From Acidisarcina sp. (GTDB lineage Bacteria; Acidobacteriota; Terriglobia; Terriglobales; Acidobacteriaceae), in the NCBI GenBank assembly GCA_035539175.1, contig DATLIY010000008.1, positions 744,001 to 808,000 of the forward strand: DNA of 64,000 nt. The letters are read 5' to 3'. Under the pieces are notes generated by a model. That model saw nothing but the letters and a program-made list of their open reading frames with translations. It ran no database searches and was not told the DNA's origin. Of this stretch, positions 7,859 through 15,459 are shown piece by piece (the stretch's first letter is position 1; each line of letters starts with the position of its first letter). Position numbers and translations under genes: made by a program.

Positions 7859-8986
7859 TTATGACGCGCGCATCAGCATCCGTATCACGGCTACTGCTTC
7901 TTCCAACTCGCTAATCGGTACACACTCCCGCTCGCTGTGCGCGGTGCGCATGTCACCAGGCCCAAACACCACAACCTCATCCGCGAAGGTCGCGAGCAGG
8001 CTGGCCTCCGATGCAAAGGGTATCGAGGTCGCCGCTCTGCCTGTCAGGTTTTCGAGCGCCCGCACCAGCGGGGAATCGGCGTCTGTCTCAAACCCGGTCT
8101 GCTGGCGCATCACCTTCATCTCATACTGGCAGCAGGCACCGCCGTTTTGCCGCTGCTCTGCGGTTTTCTTGATGAGCTGCAGCATCACATCCGCAGGCCG
8201 TCCGGGAAGCGGTCTCCACTCCAACTGGAATTTGCATTGCCCCGGAACAATATTCTTCGCCGTACCGCCCTGGATGGTTCCCACATTTAGAGTCGTAAAT
8301 CCCGGACTATAGAAATTGTCCTGCTCCTGCATCAGCTGCGCAGCGTATTGTTCAATCGCCGTGATCAGGCGAGCCGCACCGTAAATCGCCGACTGTCCCT
8401 GCTGCGGATGCGCGCTGTGCGCTTCGTGCCCGAGTACCGTGATCTCCGCCACGCAATAGCCTTTGCCTGCACGTGCCACATGCAGCGACGTAGGCTCGCC
8501 AATCACAACCCGCTGCGGTTCGAGGAGCCCCGCAGACAGCAGTTGCGAAGCTCCCACGCATCCCACCTCTTCATCTGCCGTCAGCACCAGGCGCAGTCCA
8601 TCGGCGAAGCGCCCGGCATGGCTCTCGCTGATGGCCGTCAACAAACATGCCAGGAATCCCTTCACGTCGCACGCGCCGCATCCGTAAAGCAGCCCGTCCC
8701 TTTCAAAAGGATCGAGTGCCCTGGTCCACGCCGCTGCATGTGGCACGGTATCCGTGTGACACATGAACACCAGATCGACCGCAGGATTTTCTATCTGTTG
8801 CCTGGGAGGTGCGGCAATCAGATTCACCTTTTCGATTCCGGCAGCATCGCGATAGGCCGCCAGTCGCGTCTGCCATTCTGCTGCGTGCAGCACCTCGATT
8901 GCATAGTCCACCACTGCGCGATTTGAGATCGATGAGACTGAATCTTTACGAATCAAATTCGAAAGGTGTTCGATGACTGTCTTCAT
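7859..8986 (-). CDS. M20-family deacylase (ArgE-like) in the hut operon
   Basis: A 375-residue zinc amidohydrolase of peptidase family M20, close in length and motifs to acetylornithine deacetylase ArgE. The di-zinc and catalytic residues are present: H77 and D79 in CHTDT, D107 in DVKG, E139-E140 in ADEE, E164 in GEPTS, H350 near the C-terminus. The gene overlaps hutF by four bases (ATGA), so it is translated with the histidine-degradation genes. HutF produces N-formyl-L-glutamate, and no hutG (formylglutamate deformylase) is in this operon. An N-formylglutamate deformylase role is therefore the best contextual guess; an ArgE role in arginine synthesis is the alternative. Confidence 0.85.
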   Translation of the reverse strand: MKTVIEHLSNLIRKDSVSSISNRAVVDYAIEVLHAAEWQTRLAAYRDAAGIEKVNLIAAPPRQQIENPAVDLVFMCHTDTVPHAAAWTRALDPFERDGLLYGCGACDVKGFLACLLTAISESHAGRFADGLRLVLTADEEVGCVGASQLLSAGLLEPQRVVIGEPTSLHVARAGKGYCVAEITVLGHEAHSAHPQQGQSAIYGAARLITAIEQYAAQLMQEQDNFYSPGFTTLNVGTIQGGTAKNIVPGQCKFQLEWRPLPGRPADVMLQLIKKTAEQRQNGGACCQYEMKVMRQQTGFETDADSPLVRALENLTGRAATSIPFASEASLLATFADEVVVFGPGDMRTAHSERECVPISELEEAVAVIRMLMRAS

Positions 8987-10386
8987 CCGGCAACGCTCCC
9001 AATTTCGCTGTCACGCCACACCTTCTGGTGGAGATCCCTGTAGCGAGCGAGGATCTCTTCTGCGAGTGCATGCCGCTGCTCTCGCACGACAAACTTTCCA
9101 TGGACCACGATATCGCGGATCGCCGCGCGGCCCAGGGAGAAGACGAGCAAGGGCAGCAGATCCTCAGCCGCATGGCCCGCAATCGTCACGTCGTTCAAAT
9201 CCACTGTGAAGAAGTCGGCAAAGGATTGCGGCTGCAGCGTTCCTCCGGGCATGCCCAGCGCGCGCGCTCCGTTCACCGTCGCACAATTCAGGAGACGTGG
9301 GGCCAGGTCCTGCCCTTCGATCTGATCCAGGACCGCACGCTCCTGATAGCGGAGACGGAGGTGATAGTCGAGCTCCCGCGCATCTTCCAGCGGATCGATT
9401 TGTGCCTGGCTGTCCGACCCAAGAGCTATCGCGATTCCCGCCTGCATCGCCGCGTCCGAGGCGAAGATGCCGTCTCCAAGATTCCGCTCCGTGGTTGGGC
9501 AGCAACAGATTGCTGTACCCGCCTGTGCCAGCGCAGCAATCTCTCGTGGAGTGATATGGGTTGCATGGACTGCGGTGAAGTCCGGTCCGAGCAGACCTTC
9601 GCGGTTCAGCAGCTCCACCGGAGTCGCGCCGTATTCCCGCTCGCACGCCTCGTTCTCCGCTACCTGCTCCGCCACGTGCATGTGGAGCGGCAGTGTCCTG
9701 CTCCGGCTCCACGCAGCAATCTCTTTCAGGTCGTTCAGCGGCACTGCGCGAATGCTGTGCGGAGCCACGCCAAATCGCACCTCTGGAGAGTTCGCCGGAT
9801 ATGCGCCGACAAGCGCATCCATATTCTCCAGAAATCTAGAGGTGGTTTCAAAAAAACGAGTCTGCCCATTGTCGTTCGGCAAGCCAAAACCCGATCGCAG
9901 ATACGCGGTGCGCAGCAGAACAATCCGGATGCCGACCGACTGCGCTGCAGCAATCACCTGCTTGCTCAACAGGTTTGGATCGTCATACGGGCGTCCATCC
10001 AGCGCATTGTGCAGGTAGTGGAACTCCCCGACGGTCGTCGTTCCCGCCAGCACCATTTCGAGGAACGCCATGCGCGCCACATCGTAAACTTCCTGCGGTT
10101 CAAGGTTACTGGCGGCGTGATACATCGTCCCACGCCACGACCAGAAGTTCTTCCCGCTCACCACGCGCGACTCTGACTTGCCTCGAATCAGCCGCTGAAA
10201 GGAGTGCGAGTGAGCATTCACAAATCCAGGCAACAGAGCTTTGCCGGGCAGGTCGATCACGTTGTCCGCCGCGGCATCCGCACCTGTGGCGATGCTGACG
10301 ACCACGCCATCGTCCACCAGCAGTCCGGCGTTCGCTACGAACTTGCCATCCGTGTAGAGCAGCTCAGGACGGTAGAGTGTCTTCAT
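8983..10386 (-). CDS. hutF: HutF, formimidoylglutamate deiminase
   Basis: A 467-residue amidohydrolase matching HutF, which converts N-formimidoyl-L-glutamate to N-formyl-L-glutamate and ammonia in the five-step histidine pathway. Metal ligands are seen in NAHSHSFQR (H59, H61), HMHVAEQ (H237, with E240), VHATH and LGSDSQ. GVAPHSIRAVP is characteristic of HutF rather than of guanine deaminase or atrazine-type relatives. It lies 60 bp downstream of hutI and overlaps the M20 gene by four bases. Its presence fixes the pathway as the formylglutamate branch rather than the HutG/formamide branch. Confidence 0.93.
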   Translation of the reverse strand: MKTLYRPELLYTDGKFVANAGLLVDDGVVVSIATGADAAADNVIDLPGKALLPGFVNAHSHSFQRLIRGKSESRVVSGKNFWSWRGTMYHAASNLEPQEVYDVARMAFLEMVLAGTTTVGEFHYLHNALDGRPYDDPNLLSKQVIAAAQSVGIRIVLLRTAYLRSGFGLPNDNGQTRFFETTSRFLENMDALVGAYPANSPEVRFGVAPHSIRAVPLNDLKEIAAWSRSRTLPLHMHVAEQVAENEACEREYGATPVELLNREGLLGPDFTAVHATHITPREIAALAQAGTAICCCPTTERNLGDGIFASDAAMQAGIAIALGSDSQAQIDPLEDARELDYHLRLRYQERAVLDQIEGQDLAPRLLNCATVNGARALGMPGGTLQPQSFADFFTVDLNDVTIAGHAAEDLLPLLVFSLGRAAIRDIVVHGKFVVREQRHALAEEILARYRDLHQKVWRDSEIGSVAG

Positions 10387-10446
10387 CGTTCGCTCGTATC
10401 TCCACGGTCTTCCGATTCGTCATCTTGCGGATTGGGCCCACAGAAT

Positions 10447-11673
10447 TTACCCCACAATCCTCTCACCCTTTATCCACACTTCTCGTACAGTGTTTGTTCC
10501 CATTGCGTAGACAAGTTCGCGCCAGTCACTGGCCTGCAATATCAAAAAATCCGCCTGCGCTCCCGCTTCGATTCGGCCTGCATCCATCAGGCCCAGTGCG
10601 CTCGCGGCATTCACCGTCCCTGCAACCAGGGCCTCCCGCGCGGTCAGTCCATTCAGGCGAACGGCCAGAGCCAGCGCGGCAGCCATAGAGAACAGCGGGC
10701 TCGATCCAGGATTCAGGTCTGTCCCCACCGCCACCGCAGCGCCTGCGTCGATCAGCTTGTGTCCGGGTGCAGCCGGCAATCCCAGGTGCAGGGAGACGCC
10801 GGGCAGAATCGTCGCAATCGTCCGGCTCCGGGCCAGCGCCGCGAGTTGCTCCGGCCCGCATGCCTCCAGGTGATCGACGCTCAAGGCTCCCTTGCGTATG
10901 CCAAGTTCCAATCCGCCGATGCAGTGGAACTGCTCGCTATGCAGCTTGGTTCGCAGGCCTCTCTCTTCGGCGGCGCGCAGCATCAGTTCTGCTTCCTCCA
11001 CATGCCACGCTTCTCTCTCCACAAAGACATCGACCGCCGTAGCCAGCCTGCGCTTCGCTGCTTCAGGAATCAGCTCCTCCCGCACCTCCGCGACATATCG
11101 TGCGCGATTCGCCGCCTCAGCCGGAGGAATATGAATCAGCAATGTCGGCACGATGCGCGCAGGCGTAATCCGCGCAAGCTCGCCGATCGCCTCCAGCATC
11201 GCTATCTCGCTCGCCGCCGTAAAGCCGTAACCGGACTTCACCTCGATGCACGTCGCGCCGGAGCGAAGCAGCACATCGATCCGCGGTTTCGCCAGGGCAA
11301 CCAGTTCTTCGCGAGAGGCCTTTGCTGTGGCGCGAATCGTGCTTCGGATTCCGCCTCCCGCGGCCAGAATCGATTCATAGCTTGCGCCCGATGTGCGTGC
11401 GTCAAAGTCGGCCAGCCGGTCGCCGGCCCATACCGCGTGCGTGTGCGGATCGATCAGCCCCGGAACAACCGCGCGGTTCCCCGCATCCACGGTTCTGGCC
11501 GCTTCCCCTGCCCAGTCGCACGTTCTTCCTGTCCACAGCACCCGCCCGGCAGCAATGGCGATCGCGGCCCCCTCGGTCGTCTTCAACTCGCCCATCGCGC
11601 GGCCGTGCTTCGGCCCGGGGCCCTCCGGCGTTACCAACTGTGAGATTCCCTTTACCAGCAGGTCTGCTTTCAT
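10447..11673 (-). CDS. hutI: HutI, imidazolonepropionase
   Basis: A 408-residue enzyme that hydrolyses 4-imidazolone-5-propionate to N-formimidoylglutamate, the third step of histidine degradation. [16 protein letters not shown] carries the metal ligands H77 and H79; [11 protein letters not shown] and [11 protein letters not shown] are further family motifs. The start ATG overlaps the hutU stop by four bases, giving translational coupling. Full length compared with other HutI proteins. Confidence 0.96.
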
Positions 11674-13328
11674 GGCACGCTCGGCAAGTCCAGACCGCGT
11701 TGCTTTGCCGTCGTCTTCGCCAACTCATAGCCGGCATCGGCGTGGCGAGCGACTCCCAGTGCAGGATCGTTGGTCAGGCACATGCGCAATCGCTCCTCTG
11801 CCTCATCGCTGCCGTCGGCCACGGCCACCAGCCCGGCATGCTGGCTATAGCCCATGCCAACGCCGCCCCCATGGTGAAAGCTCATCCACCCCGCACCGCT
11901 CGCAACCCCTGTAGCAAAATTCAGCAGCGCCCAATCCGACACGGCATCGGAACCATCCAGCATCGCCTCCGTCTCGCGGAAGGGGCTCGCCACGGAGCCA
12001 GCATCCAGATGATCCCGCCCTATGACGATGGGAGCCTTCAAGCGCCCGTCACGCACCATCTGGTTGAACAGCAGCCCTGCTCGGTCCCGCTCGCGATATC
12101 CCAGCCAGCAGATGCGTGCCGGCAGTCCCTGGAAAGCTACCTGGCTGGATGCGAACCCCAGCCACTCCTTCAGACGCTTGTCGTCCGGGAAGAGATCGAG
12201 CAGCGCCTGGTCTGTTGCCGCAATGTCGGCAGCCTCTCCCGAGAGCGCCACCCAGCGAAATGGTCCCCGCCCCTCGCAGAACGAGTCGCGGATAAACGCC
12301 GGCACAAATCCGGGATAGGAGAACGCGTCGCTCACTCCCGCAAGTCTGGCTTGTGTCCGCAGATTGTTGCCGTAGTCAAATGCCACCGCGCCGCGCCGCT
12401 GCATATCGAGAATCGCCTGCACGTGCGCCGCAATGGAAGCCTGCACGCGCACGGTGTATGCGGCGGGACTCTGTTGGCGTAGCGCATTCAGGTCCTCGTC
12501 CGCGCGGCAGATGGGCACGTATCCCCAAAGCGGGTCGTGCGCACTCGTCTGATCTGTAACCACGTCAGGTGTAAATCCCCGGCGCACCATCTCCGGCAGC
12601 ACCTCGGCGGCATTACCCAGCAGTCCCACGGAGACCGCCTCCCGCTGCTGTTTTGCCCGGTGCGCGATCGTTAGCGCCTCGTCCAGCGAGCCGGTTGCCT
12701 GGTCCAGGTAGCGAGTCTCCAGCCGTCGCTGGATGCGGCTCGCGTCCACCTCGACGCAGAGGCTGACGCCCCCAGCCAGCTTGATCGCCAGTGGCTGTGC
12801 ACCGCCCATTCCGCCCAGCCCCGCGGTTACCGTGATCGTCCCCGCCAGCGTGTCGTTGAAGTAGCGTTTCGCCGCGCCGCGAAAGGTTTCGTAGGTCCCC
12901 TGCAGAATTCCCTGCGTCCCAATGTAAATCCAGGACCCGGCAGTCATCTGTCCGTACATCATCAGGCCAGCTGCGTCCAGCTTGTCGAACTCCTCCCACG
13001 TTGCCCAGTGCGGCACCAGGTTGGAGTTCGCAATCAGCACCCGCGGCGCCAGCCTGTGCGTCTCGACTACCGCAACGGCTTTGCCGGATTGCACCAGCAG
13101 CGTCTGATTGTTCTCCAGGCGCTCCAGGGTTTCGATGATCCGGTGGTAGCACTCCCAGTTCCGCGCCGCCTTCCCGCGCCCTCCGTACACAATCAGTTGC
13201 TCCGGCTTCTCGGCCACCTCGGGGTCAAGGTTGTTCATCAGCATCCGCTTGGCTGCTTCCTGAATCCACCCCCGCGCGGTTCGAGTGTTTCCCCTGGGTG
13301 CGCGAATCGGAGAATAGCCCTGGCTCAT
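11670..13328 (-). CDS. hutU: HutU, urocanate hydratase (urocanase)
   Basis: A 552-residue urocanase, which uses tightly bound NAD+ to convert urocanate to imidazolonepropionate. Diagnostic segments are [49 protein letters not shown] and the C-terminal [17 protein letters not shown] longer frame extends upstream to 13430, but the ATG at 13328 ([13 protein letters not shown]) overlaps the hutH stop codon as ATGA and gives the normal protein length, so it was chosen. Confidence 0.97.
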
Positions 13329-14839
13329 TGCATCACCTCGACCGGTTGCGGATTCTCCTTCAACTCCACGCTCGCCAGAAATGCCGATGCATCCTCCATC
13401 CGTGTCGATAACACGCAGTCTTCTTTCCACGCTGGCACTTGCTGCCGGAAGCGCCGCCTTGTCTCTTCGAGCGCAGGCGTGCTGGTGTCTCCGCGCAGAT
13501 CCAGCGCGCGCGTTGCCGCCAGCAGCTCAATCGCGATGACCATCCGCGCCAGCCCCACCGCCTGCTCCAGCTTGAGGGCCGACGTCATGCCCATGCTCAC
13601 AAAGTCTTCCTGGTTTCCGCTCGTCGGAATGGATCCTGTCGATGCCGGAGCAGCCAGCACGCGCATCTCCGACACCAGAGCCGCTGCGGTTACCTGGGCC
13701 ATCATCAGCCCGGATTCCAGTCCCGCGTTCGAGGCAAGAAACGCCGGCAACCCCTCATTCAAGCTGGGATTCAGCATCCGCTCCGTGCGCCGCTCCGAGA
13801 TCCCCGCCAGCTGAAACAGCGAGATGGCGAGGTAATCCAGCGCAAGGGCCAGCGGAGCCCCATGAAAATTTCCTCCCGAGACAATGGCGTCCTCAAAGAC
13901 CAGGGGATTGTCCGTCGCACTGTTCAGCTCAATCGCAAACACGCGCCGCGCCTCGGCCAGCGTGTCCCACATCGCTCCATGCACCTGCGGAATGCAGCGC
14001 AGGCAATAGGCGTCCTGAATGCGGCTCCCCATGCCCTGGCTGCGCGGAATCGTGCTGCCCTGCAACAGGCCAGCCAGGTGACGCGCGCTCAACACCTGCC
14101 CGGGATGCGGACGCGCCCCATGCAATCGCGGATCCAGCGCCGCCGAGGTCCCGCGCAGCGCCTCCATCGTCAATGCTGCCGTCGTCTGCGCGGAGTAGAA
14201 GAGCCTCTCCATATCGCACAACTGCAGGCACCCCATCGAGAGCATCGCCTGCGTGCCGTTCAACAGCGAGATTCCCTCCTTGCCCTGCAGCTTCAGCGGC
14301 TCCAGTCCGGCGCGTTGCAGGCACACCCCACCGGGCAGAATCTGCCCTTCGAACTCTGCCTGCCCTTCGCCAATCAGCACCAGCGCCATGTGTGCCAGGG
14401 GGGCGAGATCGCCGCTCGCGCCCACGCTTCCCCGCGAAGGAATCACCGGCGTGATTCCGCAATTCAGCAGGTCGCAGATGCGCTCCGCAATCACCGGACG
14501 TATTCCGGAGAGCCCCTTGGCCAGAACATTGGCGCGAATCAGCATCATGCCCCGCACCACGCGCGGAGCCAGTGGGCGGCCCACCCCGCAACTGTGCGAG
14601 CGCACAAGGTTTACCTGCATCTGCTCGATTTCGGAGTCATCCAGCCGAATGTCCGCCAGCAGGCCAACGCCGGTATTCAGCGCATATACCGGCTTCGACC
14701 CGGCCATCGCTTCTTCGACGCGCCGTCGCGAAGCATTCATCCGCTCCATCGCTGCCGCGGAAATGTGGACCATCGCAGACCGGTCTGCAACCGCCGCCAC
14801 ATCCTCTATCGTCAGGCTCTCGCCATCCAGAACAATCAT
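13325..14839 (-). CDS. hutH: HutH, histidine ammonia-lyase
   Basis: A 504-residue ammonia-lyase that deaminates L-histidine to trans-urocanate. The residues that self-cyclise to the MIO cofactor are A141-S142-G143 in [14 protein letters not shown], the position expected for Hut[14 protein letters not shown] and the C-terminal [12 protein letters not shown] are also family hallmarks. It is the first gene of the hutH-U-I-F-M20 operon and diverges from an Lrp-type regulator across a gap of about 150 bp, which implies histidine- or urocanate-responsive control by that neighbour. Confidence 0.97.
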
Positions 14840-14938: not shown

Positions 14939-14970
14939 AAGAATCGATGGAGAATAGTTCAGAAAGCAAA

Positions 14971-14988
14971 GGAAAGAGGTCCGCAATG
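14971..14988 (+). promoter_or_regulatory. Ribosome binding site that sets the Lrp-type regulator start
   Basis: GGAAAGAGG (14971-14979) lies 6 bp upstream of the ATG at 14986. The ATG at 14947 in the same frame has no comparable sequence. The shorter start removes 13 poorly structured residues and leaves a normal Lrp-family N-terminus. Confidence 0.6.
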
Positions 14989-15459
14989 CTAGACGCGGCA
15001 AATATCGGCTCCAATATCGACCCCATCGACCGGAAAATCCTGCAGGAGCTGGCTCTGGACGCGCGCCTTCCCTTTGCCGAGCTAGGCCGCCGCGTCGGAC
15101 TCTCTCCCTCTGCCGCCGCCGAGCGCGTCCGCCAACTGGAGAGTGAGGGCTTCATCCGCGGCTACCGCGCCGAGATCAATTTCGAGGCGCTGGGATTTCC
15201 CATTACCGCCTTTGTGCGCCTCACCTGTGATGGAACGCGATACCGCCCCTTCCTGAAGTTTGTTCAGACCCTCGACGCCGTGCAGGAGTGCTATCACCTC
15301 ACCGGCGGAGACGCGTTCCTCCTCAAGGTAATGCTCTCCTCCGTCGCCCAACTGGAGGAGTTGATTGAGCGCCTGCTGCCCTACGGCAACCCGACGACCA
15401 GCATGGTCCTCTCCACCCCCCTCAAGCGGAACCAGAGCGCCCACCTGCTCCACAGTTGA
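14986..15459 (+). CDS. Lrp/AsnC-family transcriptional regulator, probable hut regulator
   Basis: A 157-residue feast/famine regulator. The N-terminal helix-turn-helix is DPIDRKILQELALDARLPF through LGRRVGLSPSAAAERV, followed by ESEGFIRGYRAEI and an AsnC-type ligand-binding domain with ECYHLTGGDAFLLKV, where the conserved glycine-aspartate turn binds amino acid. It is transcribed divergently from hutH, so histidine or urocanate is a likely effector, by inference. A start at 14947 would add 13 residues; the Shine-Dalgarno sequence favours 14986. Confidence 0.9.
   Translation: MLDAANIGSNIDPIDRKILQELALDARLPFAELGRRVGLSPSAAAERVRQLESEGFIRGYRAEINFEALGFPITAFVRLTCDGTRYRPFLKFVQTLDAVQECYHLTGGDAFLLKVMLSSVAQLEELIERLLPYGNPTTSMVLSTPLKRNQSAHLLHS

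Follow-up and report, generated by a model that had tools for sequence, protein, structure and literature searches.

An ArgE-like M20 hydrolase as candidate N-formylglutamate deformylase in the histidine-utilization operon of Acidobacteriota

Organization of the hut operon

The window, i.e., the entire stretch of 64,000 nucleotides that was analysed, belongs to a genome of 3.92 Mb that is 99.96% complete (G000 in the following), and contains a histidine-utilization operon on the minus strand in the order hutH-hutU-hutI-hutF-M20, such that the M20 gene comes last (Table 1). All four hut enzymes exceed their NCBIfam equivalog cut-offs, in agreement with an earlier note on this DNA, which had placed hutH, hutU, hutI, and hutF in the operon. 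The same note had described an intact, ArgE-like M20 reading frame joined to hutF by an ATGA, and both points hold: the frame begins with ATG and has no internal stop, and its start overlaps the hutF stop as ATGA (tcat on the plus strand, 8983-8986). Such ATGA overlaps are also found at the hutH-hutU and hutU-hutI junctions, and a gap of 60 nt is situated between hutI and hutF. The start of hutU is the ATG at 13328, which overlaps the hutH stop; the mechanically derived reading frame had begun at 13430. Judging from the overlap, hutF and the M20 gene would be translationally coupled.

A gene for an Lrp/AsnC-type protein lies divergent from the operon and is found in the same position in the loci L042-L045, L086, L087, L090, L098, L099, L106, L108, L112, and L155; this conserved divergent position makes it the likely regulator of the operon. 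At the other end, a gene for an amidohydrolase is convergent with the M20 gene.

Table 1. Features of the window and of related genomes (positions without prefix refer to the window)
Feature	Position	Strand	Remarks
Amidohydrolase resembling Xaa-Pro dipeptidase NF051886	6398-7744	+	382 bits, under cut-off 500
M20 metallohydrolase, ArgE-like, proposed N-formyl-L-glutamate deformylase	7859-8986	-	375 aa
hutF, N-formimino-L-glutamate deiminase	8983-10386	-	TIGR02022 474.7 bits, cut-off 413.05
hutI, imidazolonepropionase	10447-11673	-	TIGR01224 410.8 bits, cut-off 298.15
hutU, urocanate hydratase	11670-13328	-	TIGR01228 923.9 bits, cut-off 375
hutH, histidine ammonia-lyase	13325-14839	-	TIGR01225 636 bits, cut-off 539.15
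Lrp/AsnC-type regulator gene, divergent from hut operon	14947-15459	+	PF13404 and PF01037
ArgJ	G000:C13:77186-78352		E 1e-137
Formiminotransferase-family match	G000:C12:25613-25891		PF02971, 67.7 bits (weak), 347-aa frame
Homologue of PRK09133-type M20	G000:C8:303050-304162
M20 beside hutF in G008	L051:6010-7164
M20 beside hutF in G067	L052:8481-9743
PRK09133-type M20	L042:13358-14788
PRK09133-type M20	L043:13636-15081
PRK09133-type M20	L044:13658-15103
PRK09133-type M20	L045:994-2544
PRK09133-type M20	L063: about 10207-11520
PRK09133-type M20	L064:4561-5934

Family assignment of the M20 protein

The last protein of the operon contains the domains PF01546 (Peptidase_M20, 99.9 bits) and PF07687 (M20_dimer, 77.8 bits), both above the Pfam cut-off; apart from a marginal M28 match, only M20 domains exceed the cut-off, and the HutG domain PF05013 is absent. 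Concerning the NCBIfam models, the protein narrowly exceeds the cut-off of TIGR01892 (acetylornithine deacetylase; 318.7 bits vs. 297.7), which is also passed by all scanned members of the clade of hut-linked M20s described below, and it stays far under the cut-offs of the DapE models. Its predicted structure (pLDDT 93.7, pTM 0.91) has E. coli ArgE (PDB 7rsf, 8uw6) as the closest solved structure, with a Z-score of 41.6 and an rmsd of 2.8 over 366 residues at 28% identity.

Linkage to hutF in named genomes

Related loci were collected from named genomes by a scan of contigs, in which the best 80 of 143 relatives were kept, and were searched with hut reference proteins alone. The nearest named relatives of the window are Acidobacteriaceae; the closest M20 among the best 80 of 143 comes from the MAG GL140_4 (80% identity), and that of Edaphobacter aggregans is 68% identical to the window protein. 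The adjacency of hutF and M20, for which the earlier note had suggested a survey of other genomes, turned out to be widespread: hutF is present in the same locus in 75 of the 80 best relatives, and a further hut gene is found as well in 33 of the 80. At least four gene orders occur around the hut-linked M20, namely H-U-I-F-M20, F-U-I-M20 (e.g., Terracidiphilus gabretensis, L123), I-M20-F-H (e.g., Granulicella aggregans, L150), and F-M20 alone (loci of Pyrinomonadaceae). The link between hutF and M20 thus outlasts the rearrangement of gene order, which points to a function in the same pathway. Among the five loci without hutF, L094, L101, and L102 begin inside the M20 gene, L118 is a contig of 3.2 kb with an IS4 transposase upstream, and L152 is a contig of 5 kb that carries other genes and no hut gene, yet possesses the Y177/K244/R294 signature treated below.

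No match to the HutG reference was found in any of the 80 loci, and PF05013 was not detected in any of the 50 whole genomes searched out of the 80 kept. Compared with its presence in 8 of the 16 hutF-positive genomes of the phylum without the M20, this absence from 50 genomes with the M20 corresponds to p 2e-6, uncorrected for phylogeny. The named-genome survey overlaps with the phylum survey presented below; L108 and G163, for instance, share one contig of 2,909,133 bases.

Ancestry and distribution of the hut-linked M20s

A maximum-likelihood tree was based on 89 proteins, including 77 hut-linked M20s, i.e., the window and 76 of the 80 loci (L096, L102, L103, and L163 were excluded as broken, short, or cut); a set A2 of 70 sequences (69 loci and the window) was drawn from these 77. 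All 77 are situated on one side of a branch with support of 89/99, which is also present in 88% of 200 bootstrap trees, with long comparator branches flagged by the program.

The M20s beside hutF in G008 and G067 were considered as members of this clade and rejected, as the tree groups both with G015 and with proteobacterial ArgE-like proteins. Because they belong to another clade and lack Y177/K244/R294, they are kept out of the claim made here; if they deformylate, they would represent a separate recruitment.

Beyond the Acidobacteriota, a strong match (532 bits) was found only in G219 among 240 genomes of its phylum; this genome holds locus L120, on a contig titled Verrucomicrobiota. In the same 240 genomes, G307 has a distant M20 match (241 bits), in whose locus of 4.1 kb nothing but the M20 itself matched the hut reference proteins. 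The hut-M20s on contigs titled Mucilaginibacter (L100) and Nevskia soli (L152) cluster in the tree with acidobacterial sequences. These two contigs are likely the result of misbinning or transfer, and the same may hold for the MAG contigs titled Myxococcales (L162) and Proteobacteria (L161), such that all four were left out of the evidence for spread.

Four relatives have a second kind of M20 on the far side of the Lrp gene of their hut operon; it is of the PRK09133/NF006596 type, with 564-603 bits for the three proteins that were scanned. This second kind is also situated beside hutF/hutI in G089 and G110, two genomes with hutF and with neither HutG nor a hut-clade M20; the homologue in G000 is far from the hut operon. 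Proteins of this type may be dipeptidases or another candidate for a deformylase.

Active site and side-chain pocket

The metal and catalytic residues of the window protein are H77, D79, D107, E139, E140, E164, and H350. The hut-linked M20s all keep the catalytic residues of M20 enzymes: H77, D107, E139, E140, E164, H350, and H190 are present in 77/77 and align, in this order, with H80, D112, E144, E145, E169, H355, and H195 of E. coli ArgE. By its domains, its fold, its metal ligands, its catalytic Glu, and its dimer-crossing His, the window protein is an M20A enzyme (ArgE/DapE).

Despite the fold and the metal and catalytic residues common to both, there are clear differences from E. coli ArgE: the protein has a hut context, ArgJ is encoded in its genome, and residues of the presumed side-chain pocket, W257 among them, are changed; at four aligned positions of this pocket, H179/H182/S250/P300 of ArgE are replaced by G174/Y177/K244/R294. 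Y177, K244, W257, and R294 are invariant in the hut-linked M20s (77/77), and G174 is present in 75/77. In contrast, Y177, K244, and R294 occur in 0/11 comparators, which comprise six ArgE (E. coli and five plasmid-borne) and five acidobacterial ArgE-like proteins; the ArgE-like sequences G024a and G050a are excluded from this set, and the paralog of G000 is part of the tree, outside the residue comparison.

A further known system is DapE (HiDapE, PDB 5vo3), also an M20 hydrolase with an amino-acid substrate that bears a second carboxylate; its R258 and N245 are shared with the window protein and are invariant in the hut-linked M20s. According to a report on substrate docking in DapE (PMC5919655), the proximal carboxylate is held by Arg258, Thr325, and Asn245, and the distal carboxylate by Ser181, Ser290, and Asn244 of the partner subunit. 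In a profile alignment with HiDapE, Y177 corresponds to S181, K244 to N244, and R294 to L289, i.e., one residue off S290, such that the distal-carboxylate residues S181, S290, and N244 of the docking would be represented by Y, R (offset by one), and K. The simplest reading of these residues is a pocket with the usual hold on the alpha-carboxylate and, in addition, a tyrosine and two positive charges that would bind a carboxylate of the side chain. Such a pocket would suit glutamate and is not needed by ornithine; the clade-invariant residues would thus fit N-formyl-L-glutamate better than N-acetylornithine.

Survey of the phylum

The sample of the phylum comprised 199 genomes, with thresholds of E <= 1e-60 for hutF and E <= 1e-50 for the M20 profile. 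HutF was found in 26/199, PF05013 in 23/199, and the M20 profile in 13/199 genomes (15 places). The ten top places all adjoin hutF; the other five, with 179-242 bits, belong to three genomes without hutF. Strong M20 matches (> 600 bits) are present in eight genomes, all of them hutF-positive (8/8 vs. 26/199 overall; Fisher p about 3e-8, with genomes counted without correction for phylogeny). Since seven of these eight M20s had built the profile, the scores are not independent, whereas the positions of the strong M20s beside hutF are facts of the sequence.

Among the 26 genomes with hutF, a strong M20 and PF05013 never occur together (0/8 vs. 9/18, one-sided p 0.016); if two distant M20s are counted as well, one genome, G067, has both, with a weak PF05013 match of 80.6 bits. 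Neither PF05013 nor a hut-clade M20 is present in 8 of the 26 (G041, G086, G089, G110, G126, G168, G172, and G198), and a missing HutG alone consequently proves little. The earlier note had proposed the M20 as replacement of HutG; this proposal gains comparative support from the linkage, the HutG absence, and the pocket, whereas the bare conclusion from a lacking hutG to the M20 is weaker than it seems. Across the phylum, hutU is present in 157/199 genomes and hutF in only 26, and a match to the formiminotransferase family is present in 182/199.

Exits from formiminoglutamate in the genome and family of the window

The earlier note had stated that HutG is not encoded, and had named the finding of a canonical hutG in another part of the genome as an argument against its view; PF05013 is indeed absent from the whole genome G000, and the Caulobacter genome searched as control was positive. 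Two other exits were considered for G000 and rejected. Concerning a formiminoglutamase (HutG' type, arginase family), the sole PF00491 protein is an arginase (TIGR01229, 303 bits vs. a cut-off of 227.6). Concerning the formiminotransferase route, the single match to this family is weak (Table 1), and it is of the kind also found in relatives without hutU. A COG3643 gene of Acidobacterium is described in PMC3223725 as complementing an E. coli ygfA deletion, i.e., as having a folate role.

The family of the window is represented in the phylum sample by 20 genomes, 11 with and 9 without hutU. The 11 are split cleanly among three routes: five (G023, G073, G084, G121, and G171) are hutF-negative and have a better-scoring formiminotransferase-like protein (E 1e-25 to 1e-27), one (G139) combines hutF with a strong HutG, and five (G000, G094, G103, G155, and G163) have hutF and a hut-clade M20 and no HutG. 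The nine genomes without hutU possess neither hutF nor a hut-clade M20 and only a weak formiminotransferase (E 1e-14 to 1e-19), which is present in all nine and is therefore not tied to histidine. Provided that the M20 is a deformylase, every hutU genome of the family would have one complete exit.

Proposed function and alternatives

The comparative evidence supports well the interpretation of the M20 protein as a deformylase, and we assign a probability of roughly 80% to N-formyl-L-glutamate deformylase (EC 3.5.1.68 activity) as its main function in the hut operon. HutF would convert N-formimino-L-glutamate to N-formyl-L-glutamate, from which the M20 would release glutamate and formate, as a non-orthologous replacement of HutG that was recruited from the ArgE/DapE branch and has since specialised. 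HutG (PF05013, EC 3.5.1.68), to which the M20 has no sequence relation, likewise follows HutF in the pathway and carries out the reaction proposed for the M20. With roles taken from M20A enzymes, H77, D107, E140, E164, and H350 would form a two-metal site, E139 would be the general base, and the formyl carbonyl would be held by H190 from the partner subunit. R258 and N245 of the partner would bind the alpha-carboxylate, and Y177, R294, and the partner's K244 the gamma-carboxylate. The excerpt of PMC11511702 used here gives the general M20A mechanism and contains nothing on N-formyl substrates.

Instead, the protein might be an ArgE whose gene merely happens to be part of the hut operon, or an ArgE promiscuous enough to work in both pathways, as the passed TIGR01892 cut-off and the nearest solved structure would suggest; we regard this as unlikely. 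ArgJ was found in 6/6 genomes of the family tested (G000 and five others), and with ArgJ present in G000, ArgE is unnecessary there for arginine; the residues of the E. coli ArgE pocket are exchanged for others, and it is hut genes that recur in the loci, as far as the comparison with hut reference proteins extends. More favourable to an ArgE is that no ArgJ match was obtained in five hutF-positive relatives (G197, G075, G025, G086, and G008), and the M20 may have a second role in arginine synthesis in genomes of the families f21 and f9, where ArgJ was not found. However, G086 of family f21 has neither ArgJ nor a hut-clade M20, such that this family can manage without the latter. The NCBIfam name acetylornithine deacetylase is probably wrong for the window protein.

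It is also unlikely that the M20 acts as an aminoacylase or dipeptidase which supplies the start of the pathway by freeing histidine from peptides or N-acyl-histidine. Carnosinases and dipeptidases do belong to M20, several of them being among the structure matches, and the PRK09133-type M20 beyond the Lrp gene in four relatives could be seen in the same light; but hutF is the partner that is most tightly linked and most widely found, even where hutH, hutU, and hutI are absent from the locus (Pyrinomonadaceae), and a feeding enzyme explains neither the absence of HutG (50/50 genomes) nor the basic pocket. The least credible alternative is that glutamate formiminotransferase processes formiminoglutamate and the HutF-M20 pair has another job, since the weak PF02971 match of G000 that would speak for it has its like in all nine hutU-less genomes of the family, the five hutU-positive, hutF-negative ones have a better-scoring version, the Acidobacterium COG3643 gene has a folate role (PMC3223725), and HutF is encoded within the operon, above its equivalog cut-off.

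Returning to the deformylase, a broader scenario can be sketched tentatively, with the odds somewhat against it as a whole: the M20 deformylase clade would have arisen once from ArgE-like enzymes by a change of the pocket from cation to carboxylate (Y177/K244/R294), replaced HutG across the Acidobacteriota, and reached a few other phyla, while the G008/G067 clade and the PRK09133-type proteins (G089, G110) would have been recruited independently, making M20 a recurrent source of HutG replacements.

Relation to earlier work and significance

COG0624 is a group which we take to hold ArgE/DapE-type M20 enzymes, and At5g43600 is presumably the ureidoglycolate amidohydrolase AtUAH. The structure of AtUAH (4pxe) matches the window model with a Z-score of 28.4, far under the 41.6 of ArgE. 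The idea of an M20-type enzyme replacing HutG is not new: Gerdes et al. 2011 list COG0624 (At5g43600) as 'alternative form of N-formylglutamate deformylase' (PMC3223725, Table 3, case 20), and, according to the same paper, a Streptomyces avermitilis relative of At5g43600 was assayed and showed no activity. By the difference between the two Z-scores, the tested Streptomyces protein appears to be of another M20 branch. In one library of open-access papers, PMC3223725 was the only prior link found between such an enzyme and formylglutamate; no paper there was found to join acetylornithine deacetylase with formylglutamate, or to describe the candidate clade, the conservation of its linkage, the split into three routes, or the pocket signature.

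If the deformylase interpretation is true, it would revive the prediction of 2011, dropped after the negative assay of a different protein, with a better candidate, and would correct a systematic misannotation as acetylornithine deacetylase. It would also be a clear example of non-orthologous displacement in which the pocket could be probed by point mutants, and would fill a pathway hole at the last step of histidine breakdown in a large phylum of soil bacteria. In many soil Acidobacteriota, a re-tooled relative of an enzyme of arginine synthesis seems to deformylate formylglutamate instead of HutG.
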